In this document: in pieces, positions 1,079-47,510 of the stretch
Numbering within the stretch: the first letter of the stretch is position 1
Layout: each line of letters begins with the position of its first letter
Source of the DNA: a virus
Virus record (IMG/VR): IMGVR_UViG_3300017971_002536
Location: 104,384 to 168,383 of that record
Direction: 5' to 3' (one strand)
DNA: 64,000 nt
The notes under the pieces: model-generated
What the model saw: the letters and a program-made list of their open reading frames with translations, nothing else
Database searches by the model: none
Told to the model about the DNA's origin: nothing
Position numbers and translations under genes: made by a program

Positions 1079-2788
1079 TTATCCATTATCAAATGTCACG
1101 GTTAATTGTGTCAAATAATCCGTATTCGATGTATCATTAAATCTTACCATTAAAACTAATGGATTACTATTCGTTGTTTGTTTACCACTTGGCAATCCCC
1201 ACGTTATAGTATCTCCACTTACCGCACCATTCCTTATTCCATATATACTACCACTGTCGTCGCCAACCTCGCGTCCTAAATCATAAATACTCGACCCACT
1301 TTCGTTGGCGAGAACGAAAGCCATTTGTAAATCATCACTGCCAGACCAAACACCTACTATGTCACTCAATCCACTAAAACCATTCCTCGCAATTACTATC
1401 GTTCCATTCTCGTTAGCATTTGTCGGTGTAAATGGACGATAATAAAACTGCTCCCCATCAGTAAATAAAACTCCACCATAACTACCCCACTTACCACTTA
1501 TCAAACGACCATTATTTACTTCCAAACGACCATCTATAAGCGTTTGTTGATTGTTCCATGAACCGGAATCAATAGCAAACCAACGTTTATCTTCATCGTC
1601 AAAATATTCCAGTAACACAGTACTTCTCGTCAAATATGTATTTATTGGACGATAACCAATATTTACATTAGCACTCGTTACATCACTTTTACCATCTTTT
1701 CTCAATCTCACATTAAATGTTCCTAAATCATTATATGAAGTCTTTACATCATTACTCAATGTTATTGATTGTGTTACCGTCAAATCCCATGAATGTGTAG
1801 GAACAGTCAATGATGAAGTTGACACCGTCGTATTTGAGAAATACGAACTTTGTATTCTCGATTCATCACCATTACTATAAATAGGATTGTACAAATCTTG
1901 ACCTACATAATTTACATCAAATTGTGTTGTCCTACCATAATAATGCATTCCACTCATATATTTCCACGCAGGAGTCAACGAAGATGTATATGGATTTGTG
2001 GCAAATGACTGATTTGGAAAATGATCAGCATTCGTTCCTACAAAATACATCGTTGTTACATCACTCTCTCCTGCACTATTGTCCGCTAACATCTTATATC
2101 TATATGATCCCGTACTAACAAATGTTCCTGTTATCTCAGCATTTACTTTCAACCAAATGTTACTATATGTCGATATATCTGTTATATTTATTCCACCTGT
2201 CGCCCCAACTCCACTCGATAAGGCTCTCTCACCAAATGAAATGAAGTTTTGTTGACTTCCACTTGATACTGAAGCAGACACTCCACCAACTATACTGGCG
2301 AAACTGGCAGAAGTTCCACCAGTAAATGTATCACTTTGATCAGGTGATACTAATACAATAGCATTAGCAGAATCATCGTTTGATAATGTTGTTAAATTAT
2401 CACCTGGTGACGCAAATGAATACCACGATCCACTTGTTAACCCAGCAGAAAGATAACCACTAAATAAACTTGGCGAACTTAAAGTTAAATCTTGTCCCGT
2501 TAACGCTTCGGGACTACTTGGAGCTATTTGTAATAATAATTCATTTACATCGTCAAACGCATTTGGTATTCTCGTATCAGGTGTCCAATAACTAAAATAT
2601 CCATCCGTATAAGTTCCGTCATCTGGATTTCCTATTGTACCACTACCTTGTATCGCAACCACATTCAACGCATCGGCTATCGACATCGAAGGATTTAGGG
2701 CGCCAATGTTATACCCGCCTGCGGTCGGTATACCTGCTTGTAAATCACTTCCACTTACTCTTAATTGTTTTGGATATATTAGTGCCAT
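1079..2788 (-). CDS. Putative virion structural protein (fiber or appendage)
   Basis: 569 residues, dominated by Ser, Thr, Gly and Asn with very few Cys, which is typical of beta-rich phage fibers. It opens MALIYPKQLRVSGSDLQAGI. This small polar N-terminal segment resembles the attachment ends of other fiber proteins in marine T4-like phages. The C-terminal third (NSNPLVLMVRFNDTSNTDYL) looks like a beta-sandwich. The ATG at 2788 shares a base with the stop of the upstream gene, and only 13 bases separate this gene from the next fiber gene, so the two are co-transcribed. No enzymatic motif is visible. The structural role rests on composition and position; the exact appendage is unknown. Confidence 0.6.
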   Translation of the reverse strand: MALIYPKQLRVSGSDLQAGIPTAGGYNIGALNPSMSIADALNVVAIQGSGTIGNPDDGTYTDGYFSYWTPDTRIPNAFDDVNELLLQIAPSSPEALTGQDLTLSSPSLFSGYLSAGLTSGSWYSFASPGDNLTTLSNDDSANAIVLVSPDQSDTFTGGTSASFASIVGGVSASVSSGSQQNFISFGERALSSGVGATGGINITDISTYSNIWLKVNAEITGTFVSTGSYRYKMLADNSAGESDVTTMYFVGTNADHFPNQSFATNPYTSSLTPAWKYMSGMHYYGRTTQFDVNYVGQDLYNPIYSNGDESRIQSSYFSNTTVSTSSLTVPTHSWDLTVTQSITLSNDVKTSYNDLGTFNVRLRKDGKSDVTSANVNIGYRPINTYLTRSTVLLEYFDDEDKRWFAIDSGSWNNQQTLIDGRLEVNNGRLISGKWGSYGGVLFTDGEQFYYRPFTPTNANENGTIVIARNGFSGLSDIVGVWSGSDDLQMAFVLANESGSSIYDLGREVGDDSGSIYGIRNGAVSGDTITWGLPSGKQTTNSNPLVLMVRFNDTSNTDYLTQLTVTFDNG

Positions 2789-3135
2789 TATTTCTCAAAT
2801 ACCCTTTTCTTGTTGTGTACCCATTTATCCATTTGATAAATAAATCCACCATTTTCTTTTTCAATTATTTCTAATCCATAAATAGGCTCTTTTCCTGGCG
2901 TCCCAGCAAAAAATAGTCCATTATTATCTCTATCTAAATCACTTTCACCAGGTTTTAACAAGTCTGATAGCTTAGTCCAACCAATGAGATTTATTTTATT
3001 CATTGATTCAAGTCGCCATTGTTCCCACTTTTTATCAATAATATTATTCGGGGCATGCGACCACGCTAATTCGCCCATCGCCATGTCGGTTTCCGCATTG
3101 GATACTTCCTTTAATAATTTCTTTAAACTAATCAT
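2788..3135 (-). CDS. CTS-tagged small protein of unknown function
   Basis: 115 residues. The first ten (MISLKKLLKE) form the amphipathic tag seen across this genome and end in L-K-E before VSNAETDMAM, a plausible gp21-type cleavage site. The rest (ELAWSHAPNNI, then GLFFAGTPGKEPIYGLEII) is mixed alpha/beta with no motif I recognise. The gene overlaps both neighbours at single-base stop/start junctions, directly downstream of another tagged protein. My inference is an internal head protein carried in the capsid. The alternative is a cytoplasmic protein with a chance basic helix, which is less likely given how often the same N-terminus recurs. Confidence 0.55.
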   Translation of the reverse strand: MISLKKLLKEVSNAETDMAMGELAWSHAPNNIIDKKWEQWRLESMNKINLIGWTKLSDLLKPGESDLDRDNNGLFFAGTPGKEPIYGLEIIEKENGGFIYQMDKWVHNKKRVFEK

Positions 3136-3494
3136 TAATATTCTATCTTTTTCATTACAAATTTATATTTTGGATTTTTTCTTTCTACTTTCTTTACATA
3201 TTTCTCAGGTACATCAACATTAGATAACCCTAACATAAATGTATCTGTATCTTGATACCGTTCCCAAGCAATATATCCCTTTCTACTATCTAATGGAATA
3301 TCTAACCATTGAGATAAATGTAAATGTAATGTTTTCCACGCATCGTCAACAACATATAAATCTCCGTTAGGCATACTCATTCCTCTCAACCCAGGTTCCA
3401 TTCTTCTAATAGATTTAGGGTTTTTATATACGTCAAATTCATCGAAAATTTGACCAATTAAATCTTCTTTTATTAATTTTTTTAACTTAATCAT
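3135..3494 (-). CDS. CTS-tagged protein, YKNPKS paralogue family, copy 1
   Basis: 119 residues. The tag MIKLKKLIKE is followed by DLIGQIFDEFDVYKNPKSIR. The YKNPKS(I/V)(R/K)RM box, a P-x-GDLYVVD strand, a helix with two His (TLHLHLSQWL), an aromatic Y-I-A-W-x-R strand and a basic KNPKYKF C-terminus are shared with the genes at 44148-44597 and 44602-45048. I do not know the fold. The three copies keep near-identical tag DNA (upstream bases 3455-3494), which suggests duplication of the whole gene including the tag. The gene overlaps the upstream gp15-like gene by four bases. Probably an injected internal protein. Confidence 0.6.
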   Translation of the reverse strand: MIKLKKLIKEDLIGQIFDEFDVYKNPKSIRRMEPGLRGMSMPNGDLYVVDDAWKTLHLHLSQWLDIPLDSRKGYIAWERYQDTDTFMLGLSNVDVPEKYVKKVERKNPKYKFVMKKIEY

Positions 3495-9874: not shown

Positions 9875-11512
9875 TTAAACTTGATCAATATGACCCACAT
9901 ATATCTTCCCGTAAAATTCTGGCCTTACGATTTTCTTCGCGTAACGAGTCATAACGCCTCTGCGAGGAGTAAAATTATCAGGATCATAAATCAATGGAGT
10001 CATAATAAGTGGAATGTAAGGTGAATACACAGCACCAGTTTCCAAGAAATTACTTCCTCTAAATCCGACCAAAGCGATATTTTCAGTAAGGTAAGGATTT
10101 TTGTAAACGGTGAAACGTGAATTCAACATACCAACTTTTTGTACACCCATTGCGAATGATTGTTGGTTTCCATCAGTATCAGCAGCATATCCAGGAATAG
10201 ATTCAATAACGGTAGCAACGTCAGGACTAACAACGATGAAGTTAGCTCCACCGCGAAGTGTTAATTGATGAATTTTGTTACTTACTTTTTGAATCTTATT
10301 TCCAAGAGTTTGATACCATTCATTCTTTGTACCAGTATGAGAACCAGCATCATAGAAATTGGTTTTACCATTGTTAATTTCATATCCAGGAAGAGCTGAC
10401 CAGTAATCAGTAGTAATAGCGTTAGAAATAAGCATGTCAAGGATTTCTAAGTCAATTTCCATTCCAATATATTCACTCAAGAGAGCAGTTAACTCAGCTT
10501 CAGCGTCAATAGAGTGATATGCGTTCAAGTCTTGAGCCAATTCAGGAGTCCAAATAGCTTTCAACTTACGAGTTTTGGCGACGATAGGTTCTTGAGCAAC
10601 CGACAAGTCGATTTCAGGAATATCAAGTTTAACAAGACTTCCAGACTCAGAAGTATCTTCGAAGTCACCACGAGTATCAGCAGTAGGTTGTTTGTGATAA
10701 CGAATATCATATTCACTTGCTGAGAAGTTAGCGAATGCAGCAGCACTACCAGAAACGATCCATCTTACTGTAGCACCAACTTGAGTTGTGTAAGCAGACA
10801 AATAAGATTGAATACCACTACCACTAACAGAAAAAGCACGAACACCTTCGACATCAAGGTCAGATAAGTTACCAGTGTTATATGAAAGAGCGAAAAGTGT
10901 ACCGGCAGCCATAGAAGCACTAATATGACCATCGTCAAAACCAACATCAGCCCATGTGACAGAAGCAGTAGCGAAAGCGTCACCACTTGGAGTAGTATCA
11001 AGATCAGCAGTTCCGCCATATCCATAATCATTAATTGAGTATCCGAAACGTCCACCACCGTAAAGACCACCAGTAGCTTCATCAGTCGTTCCAGGAGTTT
11101 TACCACCACCAGTTCCACCAAAAACAGATTGATTTTGGGTAAAACCAGGTTGTGTACCACTACCATACTTAAAGTCAATGTAAAATACAAGACCGGATGG
11201 TAAGTTCATAGGTTGAATCGATACGAATTCTTTAGCGGCAACTTCACCGAAAATTCTACGTACCAAAGGAAGAGCGACACCAGACCATTGTTCAGCACCA
11301 CTACCACCAGTTTGAGAAACTTCGTCCAATAATTGGCGAGCTTGATTCTCTAATAGAATAGCCATTCCATAAATTTCATGTTCTTCGTTCATACCATCAA
11401 GAAGACCTGTTGGCTCCCATTTTTTCACGAGTCCACGAGTTTGCTCTAAAAGAGCATCATATGGATTTTGACCTTCCATTAATTTGTTTAAATTAAATAA
11501 GGTTTTACTCAT
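9875..11512 (-). CDS. 23: Major capsid protein, gp23-like
   Basis: 545 residues (T4 gp23 has 521). The N-terminal region LVKKWEPTGLLDGM, the helix AILLENQARQLLDE and the strand ALPLVRRIFGEVAAKEFVSI followed by QPMNLPSGLVFYIDF are the gp23 landmarks. LLDE ends at residue 64 before VSQTGG, matching both the gp21 consensus and the T4 cleavage after residue 65, so the first 64 residues are probably removed on maturation. A Gly-rich stretch (GGTGGGKTPGTTDEATGG) marks an insertion. The start follows GGAGAAATAAA. It forms the hexameric shell, is the last gene of the scaffold-capsid unit, and is followed by the strongest terminator in the window. Confidence 0.95.
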   Translation of the reverse strand: MSKTLFNLNKLMEGQNPYDALLEQTRGLVKKWEPTGLLDGMNEEHEIYGMAILLENQARQLLDEVSQTGGSGAEQWSGVALPLVRRIFGEVAAKEFVSIQPMNLPSGLVFYIDFKYGSGTQPGFTQNQSVFGGTGGGKTPGTTDEATGGLYGGGRFGYSINDYGYGGTADLDTTPSGDAFATASVTWADVGFDDGHISASMAAGTLFALSYNTGNLSDLDVEGVRAFSVSGSGIQSYLSAYTTQVGATVRWIVSGSAAAFANFSASEYDIRYHKQPTADTRGDFEDTSESGSLVKLDIPEIDLSVAQEPIVAKTRKLKAIWTPELAQDLNAYHSIDAEAELTALLSEYIGMEIDLEILDMLISNAITTDYWSALPGYEINNGKTNFYDAGSHTGTKNEWYQTLGNKIQKVSNKIHQLTLRGGANFIVVSPDVATVIESIPGYAADTDGNQQSFAMGVQKVGMLNSRFTVYKNPYLTENIALVGFRGSNFLETGAVYSPYIPLIMTPLIYDPDNFTPRRGVMTRYAKKIVRPEFYGKIYVGHIDQV

Positions 11513-11542: not shown

Positions 11543-12664
11543 TTACTTTTTGTTGTGATTAATAAGTTTGTGAATGCGGCTTTTCACTTCATTATCTTCA
11601 TTGACGATTTGTTCTTTATCAACTTTCTTTTCAGAATCAGTTGATTGAACAACAGAAGAAGCACCTTCAACTAAACGTTGTGTTCTTTTGTTTTCTTTCT
11701 TTTCGCCAACCGCAAGGTTTTCCATAAGTGTAGCAAAAATAAGTTTTACTTCACGTACATTCTTAGCACGATCAAAATTCTCAATGACTTTAACCTTGGC
11801 TTTGTTGTCAAGATTATAACCACGAAATACTTTATTCGTGAAAAGAAGTTTTGCATTCAAAATGTTCGTTTCGTTAATGACTTTACGTTGTTTTTTGATT
11901 GCAGATACAGCTTCACCAAGTTGAGCTTTAAGTTCAGCTATTTGATTTTCAAGAGCAGCAATTTGTCCAGGATAATCGATTTCATCAGCTTCATCAACAA
12001 GACCTTCTAAGTCTAATTCTTCATCGTCCTCAACTTCATCTTCAACTTCAGGTTCTACTTCAACTTCAGGTTCTACATCAACTTCAGGTTCCGCTTCAAC
12101 TTCGGCTTCAGGTTCAACTTCAATGTCAAGTTCTTCATCTTCGTCGTCGTCTTCTGTTACTTCCATTTCCATTTCATCTTCCGGTTCCATTTCCATTTCT
12201 ACCTCGTCGTCAACTTCAACTTCATCGTCGGCTTCTTCTTCTAATTCACTAATAACGGAATCAAGATCAAAATCCTCGTCCAACTCAACATCTTCAGTCA
12301 ATCCAGAATCTTCTTGAGCTTTTTCACCAGCTTTAACTTCAGTTTCACCACCAGGATCTTCAGTAGTTTCTTCAGAAGAGGCTTTTGAAGGCTCTTTGTT
12401 ATCACCTTGTCCAATATCAGACGAATCTGCAACTTCCTCTAAAGATTCATCTTCAGTGAGACCGGAATCTTCTTGAGCCATTTCAAATTCTTCCTCTAAT
12501 TCGACATCTTCCTCAACTTCATCCATCTCGGATTGAATTTTTTTGGTGATGACAGAATGAATTTGCGGTTCAAACGCTTCTTCAAGAGCAGCTTTAGCTT
12601 GTGCTACAGCCATTTCTCTCATAGCTTTTGCGTCTGCAATCGCTTCTTTAATTAAATTACTCAT
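11543..12664 (-). CDS. 22: Prohead core/scaffold protein, gp22-like
   Basis: 373 residues from the ATG at 12664, preceded by TTGGAGAAACGTA; an upstream in-frame start at 12700 lacks a ribosome site. The N-terminal helix (KEAIADAKAMREMAVAQAKA) and a C-terminal helical region (QIAALENQIAELKAQLGEAV) flank a very acidic centre of Glu/Asp/Val repeats. AQEDSGLTED occurs twice. T4 gp22 is also an acidic, mostly helical core protein, and lies between gp21 and gp23, as here. Several L-x-E sites would let gp21 degrade it on maturation. The identification rests on composition, helices and position, since gp22 is poorly conserved. Confidence 0.75.
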   Translation of the reverse strand: MSNLIKEAIADAKAMREMAVAQAKAALEEAFEPQIHSVITKKIQSEMDEVEEDVELEEEFEMAQEDSGLTEDESLEEVADSSDIGQGDNKEPSKASSEETTEDPGGETEVKAGEKAQEDSGLTEDVELDEDFDLDSVISELEEEADDEVEVDDEVEMEMEPEDEMEMEVTEDDDEDEELDIEVEPEAEVEAEPEVDVEPEVEVEPEVEDEVEDDEELDLEGLVDEADEIDYPGQIAALENQIAELKAQLGEAVSAIKKQRKVINETNILNAKLLFTNKVFRGYNLDNKAKVKVIENFDRAKNVREVKLIFATLMENLAVGEKKENKRTQRLVEGASSVVQSTDSEKKVDKEQIVNEDNEVKSRIHKLINHNKK

Positions 12665-12859: not shown

Positions 12860-13183
12860 TTATTTTAAAGAGTCCGTTTTAGAAATATTACCTTTACCAA
12901 TAGTACCTTTTACTACTACAGCGTTTCCTTTAGGAGTTATTTCTAAACCCTTTGGTTTTACGTGATGAATAACTATATCACTTTTCTTTTTCGCCAATCC
13001 TTTTTTCATGGCGGCCATGATCGCGTCCTCTTTTGATTTCGCTAACCAAATGTTCTTGTCCTTCGTCTTTGAAGAATCTAATGGAAGTTTTACATCACTT
13101 GTAGTTCCATGATACAGCGTCGCTTCGTTTAAAAATTTATTAACTTCCTCTTTAATGATTTCTTTGAGTCTTTCCATTTTCAC
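12860..13183 (-). CDS. CTS-tagged ADP-ribosyltransferase-like protein
   Basis: 107 residues, starting at a GTG (13183) with GGAGAAATAAA before it; an ATG two codons on is the alternative. Residues 1-20 form the amphipathic tag and end FLNE before ATLYHG, a clear (L)xE site. The mature part opens with LYHGTTSD, the Y-H-G-T motif of the PARP/KptA branch of ADP-ribosyltransferases, and continues with NIWLAKSKEDAIMAA, which matches the second beta-x-S-x-x-x-x-A element of that fold. T4 Alt is a head-packaged ADP-ribosyltransferase with the same tag logic, though much larger. I do not see a convincing catalytic Glu, so activity is uncertain. Confidence 0.6.
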   Translation of the reverse strand: MKMERLKEIIKEEVNKFLNEATLYHGTTSDVKLPLDSSKTKDKNIWLAKSKEDAIMAAMKKGLAKKKSDIVIHHVKPKGLEITPKGNAVVVKGTIGKGNISKTDSLK

Positions 13184-13196
13184 TTTATTTCTCCAA

Positions 13197-13439: not shown

Positions 13440-13449
13440 AATACCTCCT
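13437..13449 (-). promoter_or_regulatory. Near-perfect Shine-Dalgarno of the bS21 gene
   Basis: Minus-strand AGGAGGT (13443-13449), spacer GTATT-like, then ATG (13437-13439). It decides the start of bS21 and is stronger than the sites of the surrounding genes (GGAG, AAGG). Confidence 0.7.
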
Positions 13450-13483
13450 GTTGTTTTGCTTCTTTGTGACATTTATATTACCT

Positions 13484-13786
13484 TTATTTTTTTAATCCTC
13501 GTGCTAATTCACGATAAAATTTTGCTATTTTTTGAGCAGCCATAATGTCAAGAGACGCAAAAGCATCATGATAATCACTACTTTTAGGCTCCCTACTCGG
13601 CAACGCAGCAATTAATTTTTCTTTCATTTCATCAGTATCATTTTGATCTAATAAATCAGTTACTGATACTATATCGTCAGCTATTCTTAATAAATAACTA
13701 CTCACCACTCCAGCTACTCTATCAACTTTATCTTCCGTTATTAGAGTATTCTCATTTAAAATCTTGTTCCATTGTTCTTTTTTCAT
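13484..13786 (-). CDS. CTS-tagged core-type protein, WNKILNENTL tag subtype
   Basis: 100 residues. The N-terminus MKKEQWNKILNENTLITEDK is almost the same as the starts of the genes at 20574 and 20838, with L-N-E at residue 12 and I-T-E at 18 as possible cleavage sites. The rest is helical (VSSYLLRIADDIVSVTDLLD, AFASLDIMAAQKIAKFYREL), has no Cys and shows no enzymatic motif. It is separated from bS21 by a dozen bases and overlaps nothing. It is probably a small helical head-core protein that is processed and either kept or injected. Its family is not recognised. Confidence 0.55.
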   Translation of the reverse strand: MKKEQWNKILNENTLITEDKVDRVAGVVSSYLLRIADDIVSVTDLLDQNDTDEMKEKLIAALPSREPKSSDYHDAFASLDIMAAQKIAKFYRELARGLKK

Positions 13787-13787
13787 A

Positions 13788-29855: not shown

Positions 29856-30383
29856 CTATCTTACCAATTCATGATCTTTACAATATTTTATTAATTTTTG
29901 TATATCTTCATCAGGAAAATCTTTACCATATACATTTCCTGCTCTACCTTTTCTTAAAAAATTCTCAAACCCTTTGTCCACTCGACCTTGAGCAGCTTGA
30001 ACAGCAAGAGCAACATAATTCCTCTCCGCATCGTCTAAAAGATTTCCATTACTCAATACAAAATTTCTCAACTCAGGATACGCATCTTCATAAAACTTTC
30101 CTTGTGTCTTGAAACTAATGTTTGGTTTTTTCTCAGGTTCCTTTTGACCTGGCTCACCTTTTTCCTTTTCCTTCTCTTGTTCGGCTTCCTCGCGATCTTC
30201 CTCTTTTTCTTCCTCATGATCAAATCGTTGTTTACTCAAATCTAACTTTTGTTGTTGTATGTCAGCTTTCTGTTTCGCAATGTCCTCTTTGTCCTTATCG
30301 ATTTTTTCTTTTTCATCTTCAGGTTGTTCCATAATCCTATTTATTTCTTCTATAATGATTTCCCTTATTCTTTGTATATCCAT
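29856..30383 (-). CDS. CTS-tagged charged coiled-coil protein
   Basis: 175 residues. The tag DIQRIREIIIEEINRIMEQ ends with I-M-E. A long Lys/Glu/Gln region follows (DKEDIAKQKADIQQQKLDLS, EEEKEEDREEAEQEKEKEKG), which is helical or disordered. The compact C-terminal ~75 residues (GKFYEDAYPELRNFVLSNGN and GFENFLRKGRAGNVYGKDFP) form an unrecognised small domain. It may tether a small folded domain in the head core. The gene overlaps nothing and uses a site near the ATG at 30383. Confidence 0.5.
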   Translation of the reverse strand: MDIQRIREIIIEEINRIMEQPEDEKEKIDKDKEDIAKQKADIQQQKLDLSKQRFDHEEEKEEDREEAEQEKEKEKGEPGQKEPEKKPNISFKTQGKFYEDAYPELRNFVLSNGNLLDDAERNYVALAVQAAQGRVDKGFENFLRKGRAGNVYGKDFPDEDIQKLIKYCKDHELVR

Positions 30384-34373: not shown

Positions 34374-37172
34374 TTACCCAAATTTAATAGAACCAAGTAT
34401 TTGATTTATAGGGGCAAACGTTCCGGTCAACTTATAAAGTTTATCCTTATACATAAATGTAATTCCTTCAGTTGGCACTATAGCATCAAATCCACCGATT
34501 GCATTCAATCTATCAAGTTGTACTTTCAACTTTTCCATCTTCTTTACATCATTCGCCGTTTCAAGTTCCTTTATCGTAGAGTCCAATTCTTTCTTCATTC
34601 GTTGTTGTGACGATTCTGGGGCGACCGCAAGAAATTCATTCAAATTCTTTAACACCTGAGCACCTAACTCCAAAAATAATAATTCAAATGGTTGTAAATT
34701 CTTCTTAACTTGAACAGCATGTTTCGTCTTGTCATACTTTAACGCCCAATCCAAAAACTTCTTGTCGTCTATTTCCTTTTTCATATCGTTGACCTTGTAT
34801 GACTTGTCATTGTACGCCCAACGTTTTATCAAATTCGTCAATACACTGTTTGGAAGTTTATATTTCTTCTTTTTCGCCTCTTTTGTAATAAAATCTTCCC
34901 ACCATTTTTGATGATACATAATGATTAAATCACTATCTTTTAATCCATATTTACTTTTTAACTTATTTAACCTATTATTGAACTTCGATTTTTGTTTTGA
35001 AAAATCTTGTGACTTTGGTAATGTGATAATTGGATTTTTTGAAAGTTTGAAATTCTCTTGAACCTCTTGATTTATTTGACGTATCATTCCATCTAACATT
35101 CTCGCTGATTCAGTACTTCCGCCCACAGGATTTCCATCTTCATCATATTCAATCGATCCGTGAAAGATTAAAATAGGAAAATCATAAGGTACTACATTCG
35201 TTGTTGCTGGATAAACTACTTCAATGTTCATGAAATTTTTACCTTCATCAAATACTTTTCTTCGTTGTTTTTCACTCAACTTTGATATAGCATTTTCCAT
35301 ATCTTTCATAGCAAATGTAAACGCATCATGAATCGCACCACGTCCGGCAAACATATCACTTATTTGTTGTGTCGTAAGGGCTTCCGCTCCAAAATTTTTG
35401 ATGTGTCCTTTGTTTCTTGCAGCGATTAATTTTCCATCTTTCCACGAAACCATAATGTTTTGACCATCTATTTTTTCTTGTACATTTTCAAGGCTTCCCT
35501 CAAGAGCCGTATCAATCATTGTTTTTAAGTCGCCAAAAGTTAAATCCCAATCATCAAATGGATGGGCAAGATGTCCAAACGCACCGCCTTCATTCAATAC
35601 TTGTTTGTCGGTCATTACATTGTTTGTCCACCATTCTTTTGAAAAAATACTTTCCTCTAATGGTTGTGATGCGTCACTCGTATCTTGTACTAATGGTTCA
35701 TGAGTCGCCATTTCTTTCTTTGGATCATCGATGATATTATCTTTCTTCTTATCACCTAATAACCAATCAACTACCTCATATCCCAAACGATTGGCGATGT
35801 GATCCATGTGTGATTTGTATTTCGCTATTGGATCAGGATAAGTTGTGTCTCTTACTCCCACGTCACCAAATGAAACATCACTTACATGATCATATTTATA
35901 TCTTTGATCAGCATATTCCTCTTTATCACCAGCTAAATAATCTACAATCTGCCATCCTAACTTGCCAGTTATTTCGTCCACGTCTCTATGATAATTGTTT
36001 GGATGTTTATAGAATGTGGCTGGCCCGTCGTCAACGGAAGCATCATCCGCTTGAGTTACCTCAAGTAATAGTTGTTTTACATTTACTTCACTTAAAAAAT
36101 CCTCTATTACGCTTGTCGCCAAGATTACACTCTCACTAAGTTTATTCGTGATCAAATCAAATGTTTTTTGATCAAATTTTCCATAAAGTTTTTTGTATAA
36201 AGCTTTCTTTCCCTTTTCACTTAATTGATCACTACCAAATAAATTTCTTAGTTGTGTTCCACTTATATTCTTTCCTGCTACATCTATCTTGAGTATAGGA
36301 GCAGTAATGTAATAACCCTCTTGATCAAATCCTTTTACATTTTTTCCGGTCCACGGTTTAAAATATTTTCCACCAAGGCGACCAGCATCTTTTTCACTAA
36401 ATACCGTCACATAAGCAGTTTTACTTGGATCATATTTCTTTTTAATTTCTACAGGATTAAATGGATTTTTTACTTTAACTATATTACCCTTTGGTATATC
36501 AAAGTTTTTAGAAATTATTTGTTTCTTTTCCATAAAGTTAAAAGGCGATCTTCCTGGCTCAACTTTATCAGATGTACCGATAAAAGTATTCTTCTTTCCA
36601 AACTTTTTCGCTAATAAATCATACATAGAATAATGACCTTTATGAAATGGTTGAAATCGACCTGCAGTTACAGCAACTACGTCCTTTACTTCGTTTTCTT
36701 CCTCTTTCACTACCATTTTCTTCGGATTCGCCAACCATGAATCATTACCAAATCTACCCTCTCCAAGTTGTGAAGCACTATCATCAAAAGTCGTTAACGC
36801 TTGTTCTAATGGTAAATCTACTTTCGTTACTGGAATGGTGTAATCGTCGCCATGTACTTCTTTATAGGCTAACCATCTATGATGTCCATCAAGTATCTTT
36901 CCCTCTTTTGATACAAATAAAGGATGTGTTACCCAATCAGTTTCCTGTATTTTCTTTTTTAAACTCTCAAGTTTCTCCGGTATATAATCTTCTTGAGTCG
37001 GTTTTAAATCACTACATTTAGCATTTCCTTGTTCATATCCAATATCATTTTCATCAAAGATTTTCAATACCTCGTCCACATCCTTGCCCTTGACCTGAGG
37101 CATATCTTTCCTCTCGATCTCTTGTATCATTTCTAAAATTATCGTTTCACTAAACTTCTTTATGTTATCCAT
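34374..37172 (-). CDS. Tagged polyprotein: ParB-like, NMN-adenylyltransferase-like and RNA-ligase-like domains
   Basis: 932 residues. After a tag-like helix (residues 5-22) comes a ParB/Srx-type domain with ILDGHHRWLA at 93-102. Next is a nucleotidyltransferase: GRFQPFHKGH at 171-180 and ISGTQLRNLF at 303-312. A middle region (375-500) has a twin L-G-(W/Y)-x-(I/V)-V-D-(Y/W)-L-x-G-D-K repeat. The last ~400 residues are a ligase: EKIDGQNIMVSW with the adenylated Lys at 567, FMNIEVVYP, and EGITFMYKDKLYKLTG near the end. Sites matching gp21 lie between domains: QLGE138, FLSE362, LLLE371, VLNE528. It would supply NAD synthesis and RNA sealing activities. Confidence 0.75.
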   Translation of the reverse strand: MDNIKKFSETIILEMIQEIERKDMPQVKGKDVDEVLKIFDENDIGYEQGNAKCSDLKPTQEDYIPEKLESLKKKIQETDWVTHPLFVSKEGKILDGHHRWLAYKEVHGDDYTIPVTKVDLPLEQALTTFDDSASQLGEGRFGNDSWLANPKKMVVKEEENEVKDVVAVTAGRFQPFHKGHYSMYDLLAKKFGKKNTFIGTSDKVEPGRSPFNFMEKKQIISKNFDIPKGNIVKVKNPFNPVEIKKKYDPSKTAYVTVFSEKDAGRLGGKYFKPWTGKNVKGFDQEGYYITAPILKIDVAGKNISGTQLRNLFGSDQLSEKGKKALYKKLYGKFDQKTFDLITNKLSESVILATSVIEDFLSEVNVKQLLLEVTQADDASVDDGPATFYKHPNNYHRDVDEITGKLGWQIVDYLAGDKEEYADQRYKYDHVSDVSFGDVGVRDTTYPDPIAKYKSHMDHIANRLGYEVVDWLLGDKKKDNIIDDPKKEMATHEPLVQDTSDASQPLEESIFSKEWWTNNVMTDKQVLNEGGAFGHLAHPFDDWDLTFGDLKTMIDTALEGSLENVQEKIDGQNIMVSWKDGKLIAARNKGHIKNFGAEALTTQQISDMFAGRGAIHDAFTFAMKDMENAISKLSEKQRRKVFDEGKNFMNIEVVYPATTNVVPYDFPILIFHGSIEYDEDGNPVGGSTESARMLDGMIRQINQEVQENFKLSKNPIITLPKSQDFSKQKSKFNNRLNKLKSKYGLKDSDLIIMYHQKWWEDFITKEAKKKKYKLPNSVLTNLIKRWAYNDKSYKVNDMKKEIDDKKFLDWALKYDKTKHAVQVKKNLQPFELLFLELGAQVLKNLNEFLAVAPESSQQRMKKELDSTIKELETANDVKKMEKLKVQLDRLNAIGGFDAIVPTEGITFMYKDKLYKLTGTFAPINQILGSIKFG

Positions 37173-37173: not shown

Positions 37174-37728
37174 TTATTTTCCTACTTTTTGATACAACTT
37201 ATCTTTTATCTTTGGATTTATTTCTATCTTTTTCGCCTCTAAATAATCCAAGGCTTTCTTGTATTTTAATTGTTGTTTTGGTGAAGGCTTATCACTCAAG
37301 TTGTCCTCTAAATCTAATAACTTTATATCAAACGCGGTTGGCGACATCTTAGCCAATTTGTAAAGATATGTAGAATAATCTATACCTTTATCATGTGACA
37401 TAATCGTTACTAACTTAGCAATCGTTCCACCAAATAACTCTTTTATCCTCTTTAGAGTCCTTTGTGGATTTTTAGAATCTTCATACGTATCATGTAATAT
37501 AGCAAGAATTTGATGTTTCTTTGATAACCCTCTCTTTTTTGCGCGGTGATACACCCGCATTGGATGTACCATATAGGGCAACGGAGATTTCTTTCTCCAT
37601 TGACCGGAATGAACGTCACGAGCTAAATCAATAGCTTGTGTGACTTGATCTATTTCTACTAACGCAATATTGAAACGAAAGTCGTCATATTCTTCGCTTA
37701 TTAATTGACGTATCGATTCTCTTAACAA
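37174..37728 (-). CDS. CTS-tagged (p)ppGpp hydrolase-like HD enzyme
   Basis: 184 residues, starting at a TTG (37728) with CGGAGAATACTC upstream. The tag LRESIRQLISE ends I-S-E at residue 12. The catalytic domain matches SpoT/MESH1-type hydrolases: DVHSGQWRKKSPLPYMVHPM (His 40 and 55), LAILHDTYEDS (HD at 79-80) and DIKLLDLEDNLSD, where K-x-x-D-x-x-x-N corresponds to K-L-A-D-R-x-x-N. Length is typical for a small alarmone hydrolase with no synthetase domain. It would lower (p)ppGpp at injection or counter alarmone-type toxins. The stop is one base from the next gene. Confidence 0.75.
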   Translation of the reverse strand: MLRESIRQLISEEYDDFRFNIALVEIDQVTQAIDLARDVHSGQWRKKSPLPYMVHPMRVYHRAKKRGLSKKHQILAILHDTYEDSKNPQRTLKRIKELFGGTIAKLVTIMSHDKGIDYSTYLYKLAKMSPTAFDIKLLDLEDNLSDKPSPKQQLKYKKALDYLEAKKIEINPKIKDKLYQKVGK

Positions 37729-41600: not shown

Positions 41601-42458
41601 TTATTTTACTTTCATCTTTTTTAGTCGCCTTTTTAAGGCAAATCTATAATCATCTTTCTTTACCCACGTTCCTTTGATTGGCGATTTTCCTGAAGGCTCC
41701 CATTTGAAGTATAATAATCTATCAACTACTCCATCATCTTTTTGACCATCAGCAACATAATTGTGAAACGCATTACTCATTTCTTTAGCATAGTTTACTA
41801 TAATAGGAACACCTACGCTACGTCCTTCATGTTCCTTTCTCCATTGATCACGCTGTATCGCTAACTCCGGAGATATGTGTAAACAAATAATCGTATTATG
41901 AAACCCTTTCTCTTTTGTTTTTTCTAATCGGGCTAACATCTTGTCAGATTTAGCACCGACAGTATCAATGATTAAAATATTTCCTGCACTCACTATTTTT
42001 GTTTTGAATAAATCTTTTTCTTTAGATTTCGCCAAATCTCGTATGTCAAAATATGTGGCATAATACGGCCTATAAAATGACTTATAAAAATATCGTAATC
42101 CCTTTTTACCATTCATTTGCCACCACTCAAATGTTAAAGGAAATACTACTTTTTTTCCATCATTATCTTTATATTGAGTTTGTTTTACAAAAAGATCAAT
42201 GTCTTGTGGCGATCCTTTAGATTTTTCCAACCAATTAAAATGTTTCTTCGCCGTTTCATACTGGGCAGCTAAAACTTGTTTGTCCGAATTAGTCACCTTA
42301 TATCCACTAAAACCGGGAATATATCTCGTTATCTCATTATTAATGAATGTAGATTTTCCGGCGCCAGGAAGCCCCATGAGAACAATACATTGTTTTCCAA
42401 TGTCCTCTTTGAACTCATTGAGAACTTCATTTATCAACTCTCGTATTAGTTCCCGCAT
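41601..42458 (-). CDS. CTS-tagged P-loop polynucleotide kinase-like protein
   Basis: 285 residues from the ATG at 42458, preceded by GGGGAATAAT; an ATG four codons earlier overlaps that site. The tag RELIRELINEVLNE ends L-N-E at residue 15. CIVLMGLPGAGKSTFINNEI is a Walker A with GLPGAGKST, and the Ser-Asp-Lys after it (VTNSDKQVLAAQYETAKKHF) resembles the substrate loop of zeta-toxin or PNK families. ILIIDTVGAKSDKMLARLE is the Walker-B-like strand. EGRSVGVPIIVNYAKEMSNA closes the fold. T4 Pnkp repairs cut tRNAs with Rnl1; the ligase here is in the neighbouring polyprotein. A nucleotide-sugar kinase of zeta type is the alternative. Confidence 0.65.
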   Translation of the reverse strand: MRELIRELINEVLNEFKEDIGKQCIVLMGLPGAGKSTFINNEITRYIPGFSGYKVTNSDKQVLAAQYETAKKHFNWLEKSKGSPQDIDLFVKQTQYKDNDGKKVVFPLTFEWWQMNGKKGLRYFYKSFYRPYYATYFDIRDLAKSKEKDLFKTKIVSAGNILIIDTVGAKSDKMLARLEKTKEKGFHNTIICLHISPELAIQRDQWRKEHEGRSVGVPIIVNYAKEMSNAFHNYVADGQKDDGVVDRLLYFKWEPSGKSPIKGTWVKKDDYRFALKRRLKKMKVK

Positions 42459-42469
42459 ATTATTCCCCA

Positions 42470-42697
42470 TTATCTATTATATTTTTCACGATATTTAGCA
42501 TGTAAAAATGCTATATACATTGATCCACTACCACCAGTATTACTTACCGTCATTCCATCAAGAATATACCCACCAGAAATTAAATCAGTTAATTCCTCAG
42601 AAAAACTTCCTGCTCCATTCAAAGTAGCATTGGATATTGTTGCGGTTGTGAAGTCACTTGCAGCATCATATGATCCTGTTTGAAAAGTTATCGACAT
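42470..42697 (-). CDS. Small beta-rich protein, probably structural
   Basis: 75 residues, Ser/Thr/Gly-rich: ITFQTGSYDAASDFTTATIS, then LNGAGSFSEELTDLISGGYI and GGSGSMYIAFLHAKYREKYN. The composition matches virion fiber segments rather than the enzymes around it. The stop overlaps an in-frame ATG of the kinase gene (TAATG). It may be a small head or fiber accessory. No motif is visible. Confidence 0.45.
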   Translation of the reverse strand: MSITFQTGSYDAASDFTTATISNATLNGAGSFSEELTDLISGGYILDGMTVSNTGGSGSMYIAFLHAKYREKYNR

Positions 42698-42699: not shown

Positions 42700-44148
42700 T
42701 TATTCTCCTATTGTTTTATACATTCTATCTGTTATAGCAAAAGCTTGTTTTTTCGTCAATCCGGGATTTCCTAACAACTCACTATCTATTGCTTTTAATA
42801 ATTGTCCTATTATCATCCCGTGTGTTTTATTATTTATTTTATATCGTTTCATTATATCATTTCCATCTATCGGGCGTTTCAGCACATCTGGCTCACTTTC
42901 AAGGGCTTTCAATCTATCCTTCAACTTTGGGATTTGTAACGGCATATTATAATCATCCGCATGACTTATATTGTCAGCATGAATTAAATCCAATGTTGTT
43001 TGTAAGTGATCTTTCATATCATTTTTTAACTTCCTCAAAGTCTTATCAGTTACTCCCTCACTCTCTCCACCATATTGTTTTGTCCTCATATGATTTTGTA
43101 TAGCTTTTTTAACCTTAATGACAACTTCTTTTGGATATTTTAATCGTCGTAAAATAGCTTCCGCCATTTCCGCACTCACATCTTCGTGTTCGTAAAAATG
43201 AACTTCGTTATCAACTACCTTTTTGGTTGTCGCCTTTCCAATGTCGTGAAATAGGGCGGCGAGGCGAGTCTCTAACTCAGGTGGAGTATTCTTCAATACT
43301 TCCAATGTGTGCTTCATTGCGTCAAATTTGTGATACTTATTTTGTTCTAATCCCTTCAACTCGTCTAACTCATGAGCAACATACTTATTCAAGTTAGTCA
43401 TTTGTAATAAACGAACCGCTTTGTCAGGAGCTTTACTTATCATCATTTTACTTAACTCACTCATTACCCTCTCAGCACTTATCGTCTTTAACATATGTGA
43501 GTTACGCTTTAACGCTTTGATCATGAACATAGGTAAATCCCAACCATACTTTACGGTAAACCGGATCGCTCTTAACATCCTCAATGGATCATCTTTGAAG
43601 ATGACATCAGGATCTAATGGAGTTTGGACAACACCTTTCTTTAGATCAGTTTTACCCATTCCTGTAAGATCAAGGATTTCGCCAGTCGTTAAATCTTTCA
43701 GGAGTGAGTTTACTGTAAAGTCTCGGCGTTCAACGTCATCCTTCAGGGATCCTGGAGAAACCTTTGGTTTTCTATCTCCAAGTTTATATTGTTCCTTACG
43801 AGTCATTACGGCTTCAATCTCAATCTTACTCAAATCATATCCTTTATGATTCACTCCATATAAACGAAACGCAGCAGTACCGAATTTAGGATATACAACA
43901 GGATTCGAACCTTTCTTGTATATCTTTAGTTCCTTTGTAATCCACTCGGCAAACTTTATTCCACCTTGCGGAAACTCGATAACAATGTCTATGTCCTTTG
44001 GATTAAGACCGAGTAACTCGTCTCTTACATATCCACCTGCAAGAAATACTTTTCCTTTCCACTTTGATTTCTTTACCATTTTAGAAAGAAAATCTACCGC
44101 AGCTCGATCTATCGCTCCCTCTTGTAATAAGTTTTTTAGTTTAATCAT
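42700..44148 (-). CDS. cca: CTS-tagged CCA-adding enzyme / tRNA nucleotidyltransferase with HD domain
   Basis: 482 residues. The tag MIKLKNLLQE ends at residue 10 before GAIDRA. The class II nucleotidyltransferase head follows: FLAGGYVRDELLGLNPKDID, with GG at 38-39 and the metal-binding D-x-D at 52-54, then RDFTVNSLLKDLTTGEILDL and DDPLRMLRAIRFTVKYGWDL. A C-terminal HD domain contains LAALFHDIGKATTKK. Bacterial CCA enzymes with an HD domain have this size. It rebuilds the CCA ends of tRNA. A packaged copy could repair tRNA cut by host defences on entry. Poly(A) polymerase is the alternative. Confidence 0.8.
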   Translation of the reverse strand: MIKLKNLLQEGAIDRAAVDFLSKMVKKSKWKGKVFLAGGYVRDELLGLNPKDIDIVIEFPQGGIKFAEWITKELKIYKKGSNPVVYPKFGTAAFRLYGVNHKGYDLSKIEIEAVMTRKEQYKLGDRKPKVSPGSLKDDVERRDFTVNSLLKDLTTGEILDLTGMGKTDLKKGVVQTPLDPDVIFKDDPLRMLRAIRFTVKYGWDLPMFMIKALKRNSHMLKTISAERVMSELSKMMISKAPDKAVRLLQMTNLNKYVAHELDELKGLEQNKYHKFDAMKHTLEVLKNTPPELETRLAALFHDIGKATTKKVVDNEVHFYEHEDVSAEMAEAILRRLKYPKEVVIKVKKAIQNHMRTKQYGGESEGVTDKTLRKLKNDMKDHLQTTLDLIHADNISHADDYNMPLQIPKLKDRLKALESEPDVLKRPIDGNDIMKRYKINNKTHGMIIGQLLKAIDSELLGNPGLTKKQAFAITDRMYKTIGE

Positions 44149-44597
44149 TAAAATATTCTCTTTAATATAAATTTATATTGTGGATTTTTTTGTTGAACTT
44201 TCTTTACACTTTTTTTAAGATATTTCATTAATTGCATTTCTTTAAACCAATCAACATCAGGATAAGTTGATTCACTCAAATAAAATGTATTAGAATCACC
44301 TTTTCTTTGCCAGTAAATATATCCCTTTTTAATCATGTCGCCAAACGCTTTCGGCCAATTCCGTGTATCCCAATCAGCAGACTTATCCTTTGTATGACCC
44401 TTATTTTTTAACCATCTTTCTAAATCCATATGAATAGCAAAATATTGATCGTCCATTACATATAAATTACCTTGTGGATCGCTCAATCCTCTCAATGCAG
44501 GCGCCATACGTTTTATGGATTTGGGATTTTTGTATACTTCTATACTACCAAGATTACCAAGTAATTCTTCTTTTATTAATTTTTTTAGTTTAATCAT
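44148..44597 (-). CDS. CTS-tagged protein, YKNPKS paralogue family, copy 2
   Basis: 149 residues. The tag MIKLKKLIKE is identical for ten residues to that of the genes at 3135 and 44602. Then comes SIEVYKNPKSIKRMAPALRG, followed by SDPQGNLYVMDDQYFAIHMD. The C-terminal end (LKKSVKKVQQKNPQYKFILK) is strongly basic, like its two sisters. The middle holds a short extension (NKGHTKDKSADWDTRNWPKA) not present in the 3135 copy. Stop and start overlap the cca gene by one base. Confidence 0.6.
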   Translation of the reverse strand: MIKLKKLIKEELLGNLGSIEVYKNPKSIKRMAPALRGLSDPQGNLYVMDDQYFAIHMDLERWLKNKGHTKDKSADWDTRNWPKAFGDMIKKGYIYWQRKGDSNTFYLSESTYPDVDWFKEMQLMKYLKKSVKKVQQKNPQYKFILKRIF

Positions 44598-44601: not shown

Positions 44602-45048
44602 TTACCAATATGGTGGCTCAGGTATAAACTTCAAGCCAGGATTTTTCGCCTTTATTTTCGGTATATGCTGTTTTATTATCTTTTGGTATTCCTTCCAATC
44701 ATATCCGCCATCTTGCATTACCACATTGACAGATTCACTCAAATAAAACTTATTCGTATTTCCGTTACGTATCCAACCAATGTAACCTCTTTTCATTCCT
44801 TTCGCTATTTTATCCATGTAATAAAATATTTCAGATGGAATTTTTACTCCAAATGGTTTTAGGTATTTCTCTATATCTGCGTGAATTATATTGTAATAAT
44901 CAACTACATAAAAATCTCCACTTGGAACACTAACACCTTTTATATCATCATCCATTCGTTTTACACTTTTAGGATTTTTATATATCTCATATCCATCTTT
45001 AGTTGTTCCTACAAAATCCTCTTTTATTAATTTTTTTAGTTTAATCAT
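44602..45048 (-). CDS. CTS-tagged protein, YKNPKS paralogue family, copy 3
   Basis: 148 residues from the ATG at 45048, with AAGGAGTTTGGCG upstream; a start at 45069 would overlap more of the preceding gene. The tag MIKLKKLIKE is followed by DFVGTTKDGYEIYKNPKSVK and RMDDDIKGVSVPSGDFYVVD, as in the sister genes, then GYIGWIRNGNTNKFYLSES and the basic KAKNPGLKFIPEP end. The conserved Y-x-N-P-K-S box, the G-(D/N)-(F/L)-Y-V strand and the F-Y-L-S-E-S strand (also in copy 2) mark a small unnamed domain. It is downstream of the 585-residue polyprotein and translationally coupled to it. Confidence 0.6.
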   Translation of the reverse strand: MIKLKKLIKEDFVGTTKDGYEIYKNPKSVKRMDDDIKGVSVPSGDFYVVDYYNIIHADIEKYLKPFGVKIPSEIFYYMDKIAKGMKRGYIGWIRNGNTNKFYLSESVNVVMQDGGYDWKEYQKIIKQHIPKIKAKNPGLKFIPEPPYW

Positions 45049-46798
45049 CGCCAAACTCCTTCTTTCCATATCTCGCTGATTGTGGTTTTCTTATCATAAA
45101 CTCACTCTTGTATACTTTTATTGGACGTTTTTCAACAGACTCGGCGAAAATTACGATGTCGTCTAATAATTTCTTGTGTCGTTGTAATGATTTTTTGGTA
45201 GCAGTAAATCCTATTTCCCCTTTTCTACCGGAAATTCTTACCCAACCGTCCTTCATCGCTTCGTTGATAACCGCTTCATATATTATAGACCACTCATTAG
45301 CATCAGCATGAGCTAATCGAGATTTGAATGGCTTAAACTTACCTACATTTTTTACTAACCAATCAACGTGTTCTAATTCCGGAACAGCATGAACTTGACC
45401 CTTTGGATCAACTAAACCATTTCTACCTTTAGCAATTTTTACCAACTCGTCCGATTGATCTTCATATAAAATAATTATTTCACGTATCAAATCTTTGAAT
45501 CTAATTACTCCATCACCTAAACCCTTACGCATTCTATGACGAGCTGCGGCAGGAAGTTCGCCTTTCTTGGCGCCCCGTACATCTTTCTTCGATCCCATTC
45601 CTTTAGGTACTTGCTTGTCCTTTTTAAGCATTGGTGAAACCGCATGAGATTTTCCCTTTCCAACTTGTTTTTCACTTCCTTGATAATCTTCTAACGGTAT
45701 TAATTTTTGAGCCGTTCCTGCAGGAAAATCATCCCACGCGCCCCAGCGTTTATCTTTTGGATCATATATTTTTCCACCTTTATCTAAAATTTCTATCTTA
45801 TATCCATTATTCCAAATCTTTATCGTTTTTCCATGTTCTTCTTTAAATGCATCTTCAATCTTAGATACAATAGATTTCATTTGGTTCTTTTTTGGAAATT
45901 CCCAGAATGTAATAACTTTCTTTTTATACCAAAGGCGACCCGGAAATTTCAATGATTTTCGTGATAACCAACCATCTGGCGATTGCATGTCTCCGTGTGT
46001 ATATCCTTCACTACCGACATACATTTTATTTTTCCACATACCAAAAGGTACGGCATTTCTATGCCATTCTAAATTATATTTTCCTATACTTACTCCATCA
46101 GGATTTTCTAATAATAATTCTCCAAGTTTTATTGTTCCATCACCTAAACCTTTACGAATACGATGTCTGGCAGCAGCAGGTGTCTCTCCCTTTCGTTGTC
46201 CTTTTACCTTTTTCTTTGATCCCATGCCCATAGGAACTTCGCGTCTACCTTTCTTGAGTAACGGAGATTTCATATGTGAGATTTCTTTACCACGTTGTTT
46301 TTGACTTCCCTCATACTTCTCTATTGGAATTAACATCAAATCACCTTGTACATCGTATGCATCCCATGAAGGCTCTCTCGGATCGTCTTCTCGTGAATCC
46401 GGACGATATATTTTTCCACCTTTATCTATTACCTCTACTTGCCATCCGTTATTCCAAATCTTTAACCCTGACCCACGTTCTAACTTAGATATAATACTCT
46501 TGATTTGATTTTGTTTTGGAAATTCCCAAAATGATATGACTTTATCCTCGGCCCATAACCTACCGGGATATTTGTAATCTCCCCGCAAATATGGGAAATC
46601 ATCATAATCTTTTTCCTTTATTTCGCCACGATCTAATAAATGATCACGGATCGCGAAATGAACTCCACCAGGATCACTGAAATAGGCTTTACCTTTGTGT
46701 ATTCCAAATGCGTGAGCGTCACCTTCAGTATAACTTAAACGTGTATTACCTACATATACACCATCAGGGTTCTCTCTCAACAATTTTTTTAGTTTCAT
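45041..46798 (-). CDS. CTS-tagged tandem polyprotein (two ENPDG repeats plus third domain)
   Basis: 585 residues built of a duplicated ~210-residue unit. Unit 1 (1-220) starts MKLKKLLRE then NPDGVYVGN; unit 2 (221-430) starts TIKLGELLLE then NPDGVSIGK. Both share ISFWEFPKQNQIKSI / ITFWEFPKKNQMKSI and end in a GMGSKK...AAARHRxRKGLGDG linker. A third tag-like stretch VIRFKDLIREIIILYE (431-446) precedes a 140-residue end domain (LVKIAKGRNGLVDPKGQVHA) distantly like the YKNPKS family. Cleavage after E9, E231 and E440 or E446 would release three mature domains. This is the clearest case of the tag repeated inside one chain. Confidence 0.65.
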   Translation of the reverse strand: MKLKKLLRENPDGVYVGNTRLSYTEGDAHAFGIHKGKAYFSDPGGVHFAIRDHLLDRGEIKEKDYDDFPYLRGDYKYPGRLWAEDKVISFWEFPKQNQIKSIISKLERGSGLKIWNNGWQVEVIDKGGKIYRPDSREDDPREPSWDAYDVQGDLMLIPIEKYEGSQKQRGKEISHMKSPLLKKGRREVPMGMGSKKKVKGQRKGETPAAARHRIRKGLGDGTIKLGELLLENPDGVSIGKYNLEWHRNAVPFGMWKNKMYVGSEGYTHGDMQSPDGWLSRKSLKFPGRLWYKKKVITFWEFPKKNQMKSIVSKIEDAFKEEHGKTIKIWNNGYKIEILDKGGKIYDPKDKRWGAWDDFPAGTAQKLIPLEDYQGSEKQVGKGKSHAVSPMLKKDKQVPKGMGSKKDVRGAKKGELPAAARHRMRKGLGDGVIRFKDLIREIIILYEDQSDELVKIAKGRNGLVDPKGQVHAVPELEHVDWLVKNVGKFKPFKSRLAHADANEWSIIYEAVINEAMKDGWVRISGRKGEIGFTATKKSLQRHKKLLDDIVIFAESVEKRPIKVYKSEFMIRKPQSARYGKKEFGDD

Positions 46799-46995
46799 TA
46801 CTTGATCTCTCTTGATAGTTTAGCTATATCAATCATATATGGTTTTAACATTTCTAAAGCTTTCTTATATGTCTCAGGATCTTTATCCTTTAACGCTCTC
46901 TTAATAAGTGATAAAGATAATTCGGCTTTTTGATTTATCACTTTTATATGACCTTTCGCCTTTCCACTTACCAAATCTTTTAATTTAGGTATCAT
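46798..46995 (-). CDS. Short basic protein with diverged tag
   Basis: 65 residues. I take the ATG at 46995, which forms an ATGA overlap with the stop of the upstream HAD gene; the longer frame to 47073 would run 78 bases inside that gene. The start MIPKLKDLVSGKAKGHIKVI keeps the K-L-K-x-L pattern of the tag but lacks L-x-E. The rest is a helical segment (KAELSLSLIKRALKDKDPET, YKKALEMLKPYMIDIAKLSR). Probably a small core peptide or degenerate tagged protein. Confidence 0.5.
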   Translation of the reverse strand: MIPKLKDLVSGKAKGHIKVINQKAELSLSLIKRALKDKDPETYKKALEMLKPYMIDIAKLSREIK

Positions 46996-47510
46996 AGTCC
47001 TAACTCCTTGAGTTTCTTTATCGTTGATGAGGCAGACTTGTGTAAAATCCCAATTCCACCACGTGCCTTCCATTGTTTTATATTTTCATCCATATCGTCA
47101 ATCAATATAGCATCTTTCTTAGCAAAATCTTGTTTATCTCTCGCCCGTCGAAGTATCAACTCAACATTACCAAGATTACCCTTGACCCACATATGCTTGC
47201 CACGTGGGCTCTCAGGTATTGTCCTTGCAGGAGCGGATAAAATTTTTACATTCTTGTTCTTGATGTAATCCCATAATTTTTTACCGTCCTTCATCCAAGG
47301 CATTTCACTCCAATACTTGAGTCCACCTTTACCGATTTCGCTCCAAAAGGCTTCCGTTCCCTCTTTCTTCTCATATTTTCGACCATCTTTTATTCCAGTA
47401 AAATTCTCAAGTTGTTTGTCGAAATCAGTAAGTACGCCATCCATATCACAATAAACGGTATACTTATATTGATAAATATATTCTTTTATTAGTTTCGATA
47501 ATTTAAGCAT
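46992..47510 (-). CDS. CTS-tagged HAD-family phosphatase / 5'-nucleotidase
   Basis: 172 residues. The tag MLKLSKLIKE ends I-K-E at residue 10. Right after it, YTVYCDMDGVLTDFD is the HAD motif I with both Asp at 22 and 24. The cap and motif II region (KYWSEMPWMKDGKKLWDYIK, then VKILSAPARTIPESPRGKHM) and motif III/IV (KKDAILIDDMDENIKQWKAR) are in the usual order. The size fits 5'(3')-deoxyribonucleotidase or small phosphatase types. A nucleotide or 3'-phosphate substrate would fit the RNA-repair neighbours, but specificity cannot be told. Confidence 0.75.
   Translation of the reverse strand: MLKLSKLIKEYIYQYKYTVYCDMDGVLTDFDKQLENFTGIKDGRKYEKKEGTEAFWSEIGKGGLKYWSEMPWMKDGKKLWDYIKNKNVKILSAPARTIPESPRGKHMWVKGNLGNVELILRRARDKQDFAKKDAILIDDMDENIKQWKARGGIGILHKSASSTIKKLKELGL

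Follow-up and report, generated by a model that had tools for sequence, protein, structure and literature searches.

The 64,000-nucleotide stretch analysed here (the window) comprises bases 104384-168383 of the virus record IMGVR_UViG_3300017971_002536, which totals 168,383 bases, and carries on its minus strand a T4-type head module of terminase, portal, gp21-type protease, gp22-like scaffold and gp23. In and around this module, short amphipathic N-termini that resemble the capsid-targeting sequences (CTSs) of T4 recur at the start of otherwise dissimilar proteins (Table 1; genes are named by their lower window coordinate). A sequence-only reading had listed 18 such N-termini, all of which were located at the named genes on the minus strand. 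Genes were called over the window and the other 104 kb of the same record, 184 in total, and are labelled "late" to the right of genome position 71 kb (n = 94) and "early" in the other half (n = 90), the labels being assigned by gene content and position, not by transcription.

Protease and capsid protein of the head module

The gp21-like protease that had been recognized beside the tagged genes (18331-18939, minus strand) matches the head maturation protease family phrog_207 with an E-value of 3e-55. It is a Peptidase_S77 and the predicted cutter of the tags, and its 100% identical copy in record G021 matches PF03420. The LLDE reported for gp23 does lie at residues 61-64, where it forms the predicted maturation site. 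Peptidase_S77 (PF03420) was found in all eight tag-selected records of at least 65 kb and in none of five tag-selected fragments of less than 48 kb; since a base rate for large viral records was not at hand, the co-occurrence in the larger records is regarded as consistent rather than strong.

A single motif anchored on glutamate

The N-termini had been sorted into three types (A, B and C), which turn out to be variants of one motif and one helix once they are aligned on the Glu. A hydrophobic residue then falls at position -6, two hydrophobics at -3/-2 and the Glu at 0, so that LKKLIKE, WNKILNE and LKEIIKE share one pattern. Written as Φxx[L/I/F/M][L/I/M/F/V]xE ([LIFYWMV]xx[LIFM][LIMFV]xE), this motif fits 16 of the 18 N-termini, in which (L/I)xE occupies a conserved position of the helix; the misfits are 25100 (MIKLKQLME) and 20004 (MDKKLWYKMLGKE). 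The statement that nearly all tags end in (L/I)xE holds in so far as all 18 contain it inside the first 30 residues, although in gene 20004 the site is at residue 26 and not at the tag end. The same pattern is found in T4 IPIII (YQEFIAE, from MKTYQEFIAE), gp24 (INELLRE, from MAKINELLRE) and gp23 (FGSFLTE). The closest residue match to MKTYQEFIAE is KTWNKILNE against KTYQEFIAE, with equal spacing of hydrophobics and Glu but different residues. A cultured relative, Flavobacterium phage immuto_2-6A (host Flavobacterium sp. LMO8), bears the tags MKKSELVKLIKE, MKKSQLREIIRKE, MENFDLKKFLVE and MRLLELLRE.

Among late genes the motif is present in 24 of 94 N-termini, compared with a mean of 3.5 (standard deviation 1.8, maximum 12) in 2000 shuffles, while the early half shows no excess (5 of 90 against 4.0 expected). 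The narrower [LI][LI]xE occurs in 23 of 94 late and 3 of 90 early N-termini and in 3% of internal windows, whereas bare [LI]xE (43% of late N-termini, 16% internally) is too weak to serve as sole criterion. Some of the motif choices were made post hoc, after the data had been seen. As a safeguard, position weight matrices (PWMs) were trained only on other contigs, and two such matrices give 9 and 11 matches in this genome against 0.9 expected for each, so that the scan proposed earlier for this genome does recover the tag. A total of at least 20 unrelated proteins, as first proposed, is slightly too high for the listed N-termini: the 18 bodies fall into 16 families, because 3135, 44148 and 44602 are full-length paralogues with bodies 30-42% identical, and about 20 is attained with further candidates (genome positions 72025, 72284 and 72505; window 21047 and 34374). 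In gene 44602 the tag begins at the internal ATG 45048, not at the start of the longest open reading frame (45069).

Enzymes and domains behind the tag

Tagged bodies in the window include a CCA-adding enzyme/poly(A) polymerase with an HD domain (42700), a further HD protein (37174), a kinase (41601), an NT5C (46992) and a cytidylyltransferase-like protein (34374), residues 19-134 of which match DarB-like/PLxRFG proteins. Relatives of the CCA enzyme retain M[IL]K[LM]xxL[LV]xE at only 50-62% identity to the window protein, and alignments of NT5C proteins of other phages to 46992 mostly begin at residue 12-19. Scans for orthologues of 12860 and 46992 returned a near-identical contig only. The 585-residue product of 45041 consists of three units, each of which opens with the motif (residues 9, 231 and 440), and the motif has no other occurrence in this protein; between units 1 and 2, tag included, identity is 49%. 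By its sequence, the protein resembles fused cargo carrying cut sites in its interior, and it might be cut apart inside the head. Outside the window, a tag stands ahead of an S-adenosylmethionine (SAM)-lyase-like protein.

For gene 12860, a low-confidence model gives a single helix (residues 3-21) preceding the body. An assignment of this body as an ADP-ribosyltransferase on the basis of a LYHGTT motif was rejected, as no Pfam, PDB-sequence or phage relative was found, the model has a predicted local distance difference test score (pLDDT) of 66, and there was no fold match with E <0.4.

Transfer of the tag between bodies

In contigs that carry a protease related to that of the window, [LI][LI]xE is present on 22% of N-termini compared with 5% of internal windows. 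The most striking form, MKKSELRQIIREE, begins up to nine genes within one 14-kb contig (L112). Its DNA pattern was found at 92 stretches in viral contigs, while 257 Gb of cellular genomes yielded a single 3-kb contig, phage-like and with three tagged genes. A set of 160 MKKSELRxII[R/K]EE proteins was collected, in which residues 1-12, but not the remainder, are fixed by selection. Grouped by BLAST, 155 bodies of this set give 137 clusters, of which 126 have a single member. In these 160 genes the third codon position varies while the residues stay unchanged, which indicates that selection acts on the protein. A second [LIMVF]xE lies within residues 13-28 in 145 of the 160, compared with 21% of body windows, with its Glu phased at residue 17, 19 or 20. 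This second site has L/I at P3 and, in most cases, A, G, E, S, T or D at P1', as does LLDE↓A, the gp23 site predicted for those phages. When 89 tagged proteins are aligned, the consensus reads MKKSELRxIIxEEIxxxxxE, with next to nothing beyond residue 20. A tblastn search of annotated phages with 20-residue tags returned immuto and one uncultured phage only, or nothing.

Tagged enzymes in cyanophage virions

Tagged enzymes have been detected in virions of the relatives S-CREM2 and S-SM1. The S-CREM2 virion proteome lists 52 proteins (PMC10665884, Table 3), whose N-termini were taken from the genome of that phage. A T4-CTS-like N-terminus is found on all four non-lysis enzymes and on none of the 24 structural proteins; the four are the SAM hydrolase (MKDFDSFLEE), the kinase (MKRFDAFLTE), the cytidylyltransferase (MKNFSSFLTE) and the Cas9-like nuclease gp12 (L243 7704-10313), whose CTS-like RFASFMAE lies near residue 25, and two virion hypotheticals are tagged as well (MKDLHSFLTE and MQTFSMFFSE). 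The motif is present in 6 of 28 non-structural virion proteins, 0 of 24 structural proteins and 8 of 164 proteins undetected in virions (p = 0.007), and F[LIMF]xE in 6 of the 28 as opposed to 4 of the 164 (p = 0.0008). MKKFSAFLNE is the start of GC190, the cytidylyltransferase detected in S-SM1 virions (PMC3037559). The kinase of S-CRM01, whose presence in virions is reported according to PMC10665884, begins MISFDQFLSE and has tagged neighbours.

Interpretation

The tag is very probably a T4-type CTS that is cut by gp21 and stands on a far larger cargo than in T4; for this phage, we infer the binding to the core, the cleavage, the packaging and the injection. The proposal of a capsid-targeting-like tag is supported by the match to the T4 CTS and gp24, the phage-only distribution, the transfer across bodies, the S77 protease together with the L/I-x-E of gp23, and the cyanophage virion proteomes. 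The simplest account is the T4 pathway with a larger and faster-changing cargo. The amphipathic helix would bring a late-expressed protein into the prohead core via the scaffold, the gp21-type protease would cleave after the Glu of (L/I)-x-E with loss of the tag peptide, and the mature cargo would remain in the head beside the DNA and then enter the next host cell. Since the tag moves between unrelated bodies, about 15-25 kinds of protein would be loaded in this phage and its relatives, probably serving the first minutes of infection, and the number of proteins that such phages pass to an infected host is probably well above what has so far been recognized. We lean slightly towards a broader proposition, a general head-sorting code Φxx[L/I/F/M][L/I/M/F]xE under which any late protein that gains the helix becomes injected cargo. 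A large group of uncultured T4-like phages would then carry fast-turning cassettes of 15-25 injected effectors each, some of them polyproteins cut in the head, and this so far overlooked set of effectors could be read from sequence alone.

Several observations weigh against reading the tag as a CTS. Tag-like helices also occur on TerL and a few other proteins, so that the motif alone yields false positives, and most S-CREM2 virion hypotheticals lack the motif, which makes the tag one route among several. The authors of that proteome caution that virion enzymes may be co-purified (PMC10665884). The cyanophage tags have the form MKxFxxFLxE, which is nearer to T4 than the window forms are, and the bridge between the two is thus the common motif. 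No virion proteome was found for a phage whose tags have precisely the A, B or C form, this phage being known from sequence alone, and a search of the literature for virion proteomes of immuto or Mel-JY01 likewise found none. Finally, a 292-kb relative (G001) shows no enrichment of the broad motif over its genome as a whole, although strong tags cluster close to its protease. The TerL N-terminus reads KTLKQIIAGEYKHC in the window and SLKEIIAEEYKKC in related contigs, and may be a false positive or reflect a shared contact with the core.

Among the alternatives, the one that survives best, and which we hold to be possible yet doubtful, accepts targeting to the prohead core, but takes many tagged proteins, chiefly the small ones at 12860-21047, for parts of the core or scaffold like T4 gp67 and gp68, which would be degraded at maturation and not delivered. 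These proteins sit between the portal and gp22/gp23, as do gp67-gp68-gp21 in T4, several are devoid of a recognizable domain, and N-terminal L/I-x-E sites are also present in T4 gp22, gp67 and gp68. However, the CCA-adding enzyme, NT5C and the kinase bear the same tag, the bodies are highly diverse and mostly singletons, unlike scaffold, and tagged enzymes are retained in related virion proteomes. It is unlikely that the helix is instead a generic docking element for a membrane, the terminase or a host factor, in which L/I-x-E would be incidental to helix composition: amphipathic Lys/Leu/Glu helices are common and the TerL N-termini of these phages look alike (KSLKEIIAEEYKKC), but the Glu is fixed, the second L/I-x-E keeps its phase and greatly exceeds the background frequency, the same L/I-x-E recurs at the predicted gp23 site, and the tag is on virion-detected S-CREM2 enzymes and on none of the structural proteins. 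Very improbable is a DNA or RNA element (a translation start or late promoter) or a remnant of recent duplication with diverged bodies, since, although the DNA of the tags is repeated in stretches of 30-60 nt, the third-position variation under fixed residues speaks against the former, and the latter holds only for the true paralogues 3135, 44148 and 44602, given the number of body clusters and the loss of consensus past residue 20.

If the tag is indeed a CTS, the cargo of many uncultured T4-like phages could be listed from sequence alone, and dozens of proteins of unknown function would become testable as injected effectors, many of them likely counter-defence. It would also explain the enzymes that recur in cyanophage virion proteomes, and would provide an assortment of natural tags with which proteins could be loaded into phage heads.

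Relation to known packaging systems

The T4 CTS directs a protein to the scaffold core, gp21 strips 10-20 residues, and the protein remains with the DNA (PMC9958956, PMC5694885). Injected Ip1-Ip3 of T4 block type IV restriction enzymes, and at least ten modular internal proteins have been reported across T-even phages (PMC12373910). The mechanism is already known, and it is the scale, the sequence generality and the cargo that are new. As in T4 IPI-IPIII and Alt, a short helix-like N-terminus ending in (L/I)xE stands on unrelated proteins and is accompanied by a gp21-type S77 protease. In contrast to T4 with its MKTYQEFIAE and a handful of tagged genes, the window forms are MIKLKKLIKE, MDKKTWNKILNE and RLKEIIKEE..FLNE, about 20 genes of this one phage are tagged, enzymes of metabolic and RNA-repair type are among the cargo, and the motif is also present inside a fused three-unit protein. 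A scan of part of the T4 genome gave no significant motif enrichment.

The cyanophages S-CREM2, S-SM1 and S-CRM01 are similar in that a SAM hydrolase, an APH kinase and a cytidylyltransferase with CTS-like N-termini are found in virions, but differ in the form of the tag; in the portions available, the papers propose virion carriage, with a targeting tag unmentioned. In phiKZ and SPN3US a prohead protease likewise cuts head proteins, and two paralogous ejection proteins have a common N-terminus (PMC5694885), but the propeptides are mostly >100 residues with an A/S-x-E cleavage motif, as opposed to tags of 9-21 residues and L/I-x-E in the window. DarB is packaged in the P1 head (PMC9024508), and its N-terminal head signal can carry a reporter; 34374 shares a domain with DarB-like proteins. 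The P1 signal, however, is on one large protein and may need proper folding, whereas here a short tag is on many small separate proteins. The open-access literature yielded no paper on these tag forms, on how widely they occur or on their connection with the enzymes of cyanophage virions.

Table 1. Tags and head-module features of the window (all positions in window coordinates).
Feature	Gene or product	Position	Strand	Basis or remark
MISLKKLLKE	2788-3135, unknown body	3106..3135	-	motif LKKLLKE, E10; PWM_A 16.5
MIKLKKLIKE	3135-3494, paralogue of 44148 and 44602	3465..3494	-	motif, PWM
gp23	major capsid protein	9875..11512	-	phrog_138, 3e-70
LLDE↓V	predicted gp23 maturation site, residues 61-64	11321..11332	-	LLDE↓A in relatives
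MSNLIKEAIADAK...	gp22-like acidic scaffold	11543..12664	-	sequence and position beside gp23
MKMERLKEIIKEEVNKFLNE	12860-13183	13124..13183	-	PWM_C 4.1
MKKEQWNKILNE	13484-13786	13751..13786	-	motif WNKILNE
MKRSRLNEIIKEEVQNFLLNE	18956-19612	19550..19612	-	PWM_C 7.6
MKISKDRIKEIIRE	19622-19999	19958..19999	-	motif
MDKKLWYKMLGKE (variant)	20004-20567	20529..20567	-	inexact motif fit
MDKKTWNKILNE	20574-20828	20793..20828	-	DNA repeat D7 and motif
MDKKTWNKILNE	20838-21047	21012..21047	-	DNA repeat D7 and motif
gp20	portal protein	23156..25030	-	phrog_213, 6e-64
MIKLKQLME (weak)	25100-25459	25433..25459	-	PWM_A 11.4; outside unified motif
TerL	terminase	26793-28424	-	
MDIQRIREIIIE	29856-30383	30348..30383	-	motif
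MDNIKKFSETIILEMIQE (candidate)	34374-37172, cytidylyltransferase-like (CTP_transf_like)	37119..37172	-	
(M)LRESIRQLISE	37174-37728, HD domain	37693..37728	-	motif, domain match
MGNNMRELIRELINEVLNE	41601-42470, zeta-toxin-like P-loop kinase	42414..42470	-	
MIKLKNLLQE	42700-44148, CCA-adding/poly(A) polymerase and HD	44119..44148	-	tag positions kept in orthologues
MIKLKKLIKE	44148-44597	44568..44597	-	motif, PWM
MIKLKKLIKE	44602-45048, true start 45048	45019..45048	-	
MKLKKLLRE	start of 45041-46798 (585 aa, three units)	46772..46798	-	
LGELLLE (internal)	45041-46798, residues 225-231, start of unit 2	46106..46126	-	
FKDLIRE (internal)	45041-46798, residues 434-440, start of unit 3	45479..45499	-	
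MLKLSKLIKE	46992-47510, NT5C deoxyribonucleotidase	47481..47510	-	motif, domain match

Further observations

The gp22-like scaffold gene gave no PHROG match and contains an E/D-rich acidic repeat tract at window 12005-12248. Within the head module, a 603-residue protein (window 14701-16512) has several internal xNE/ENTL stretches (e.g., VRSVVKEIMMNEASKY and LKENTLVTEE) and a KVKVMYGKHKGK segment. Judged by N-terminal sequences only, genome positions 1-24 kb hold a long run of sugar-nucleotide, epimerase and transferase-like genes. The 292-kb record G001 contains three SAM-lyase-like matches (70804-71130 and 94160-94991), one of which, near 94749, is in a gene that starts with the tag MKMKSLIKE. 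In a 735-kb uncultured phage (L239, LR756501), the N-terminus MIxKFK[L/I]FE recurs on adjacent genes and may be an analogous tag of huge phages; there, a CCA-adding enzyme homologue forms the end of a long protein that contains repeats of DPYGEEDWE.

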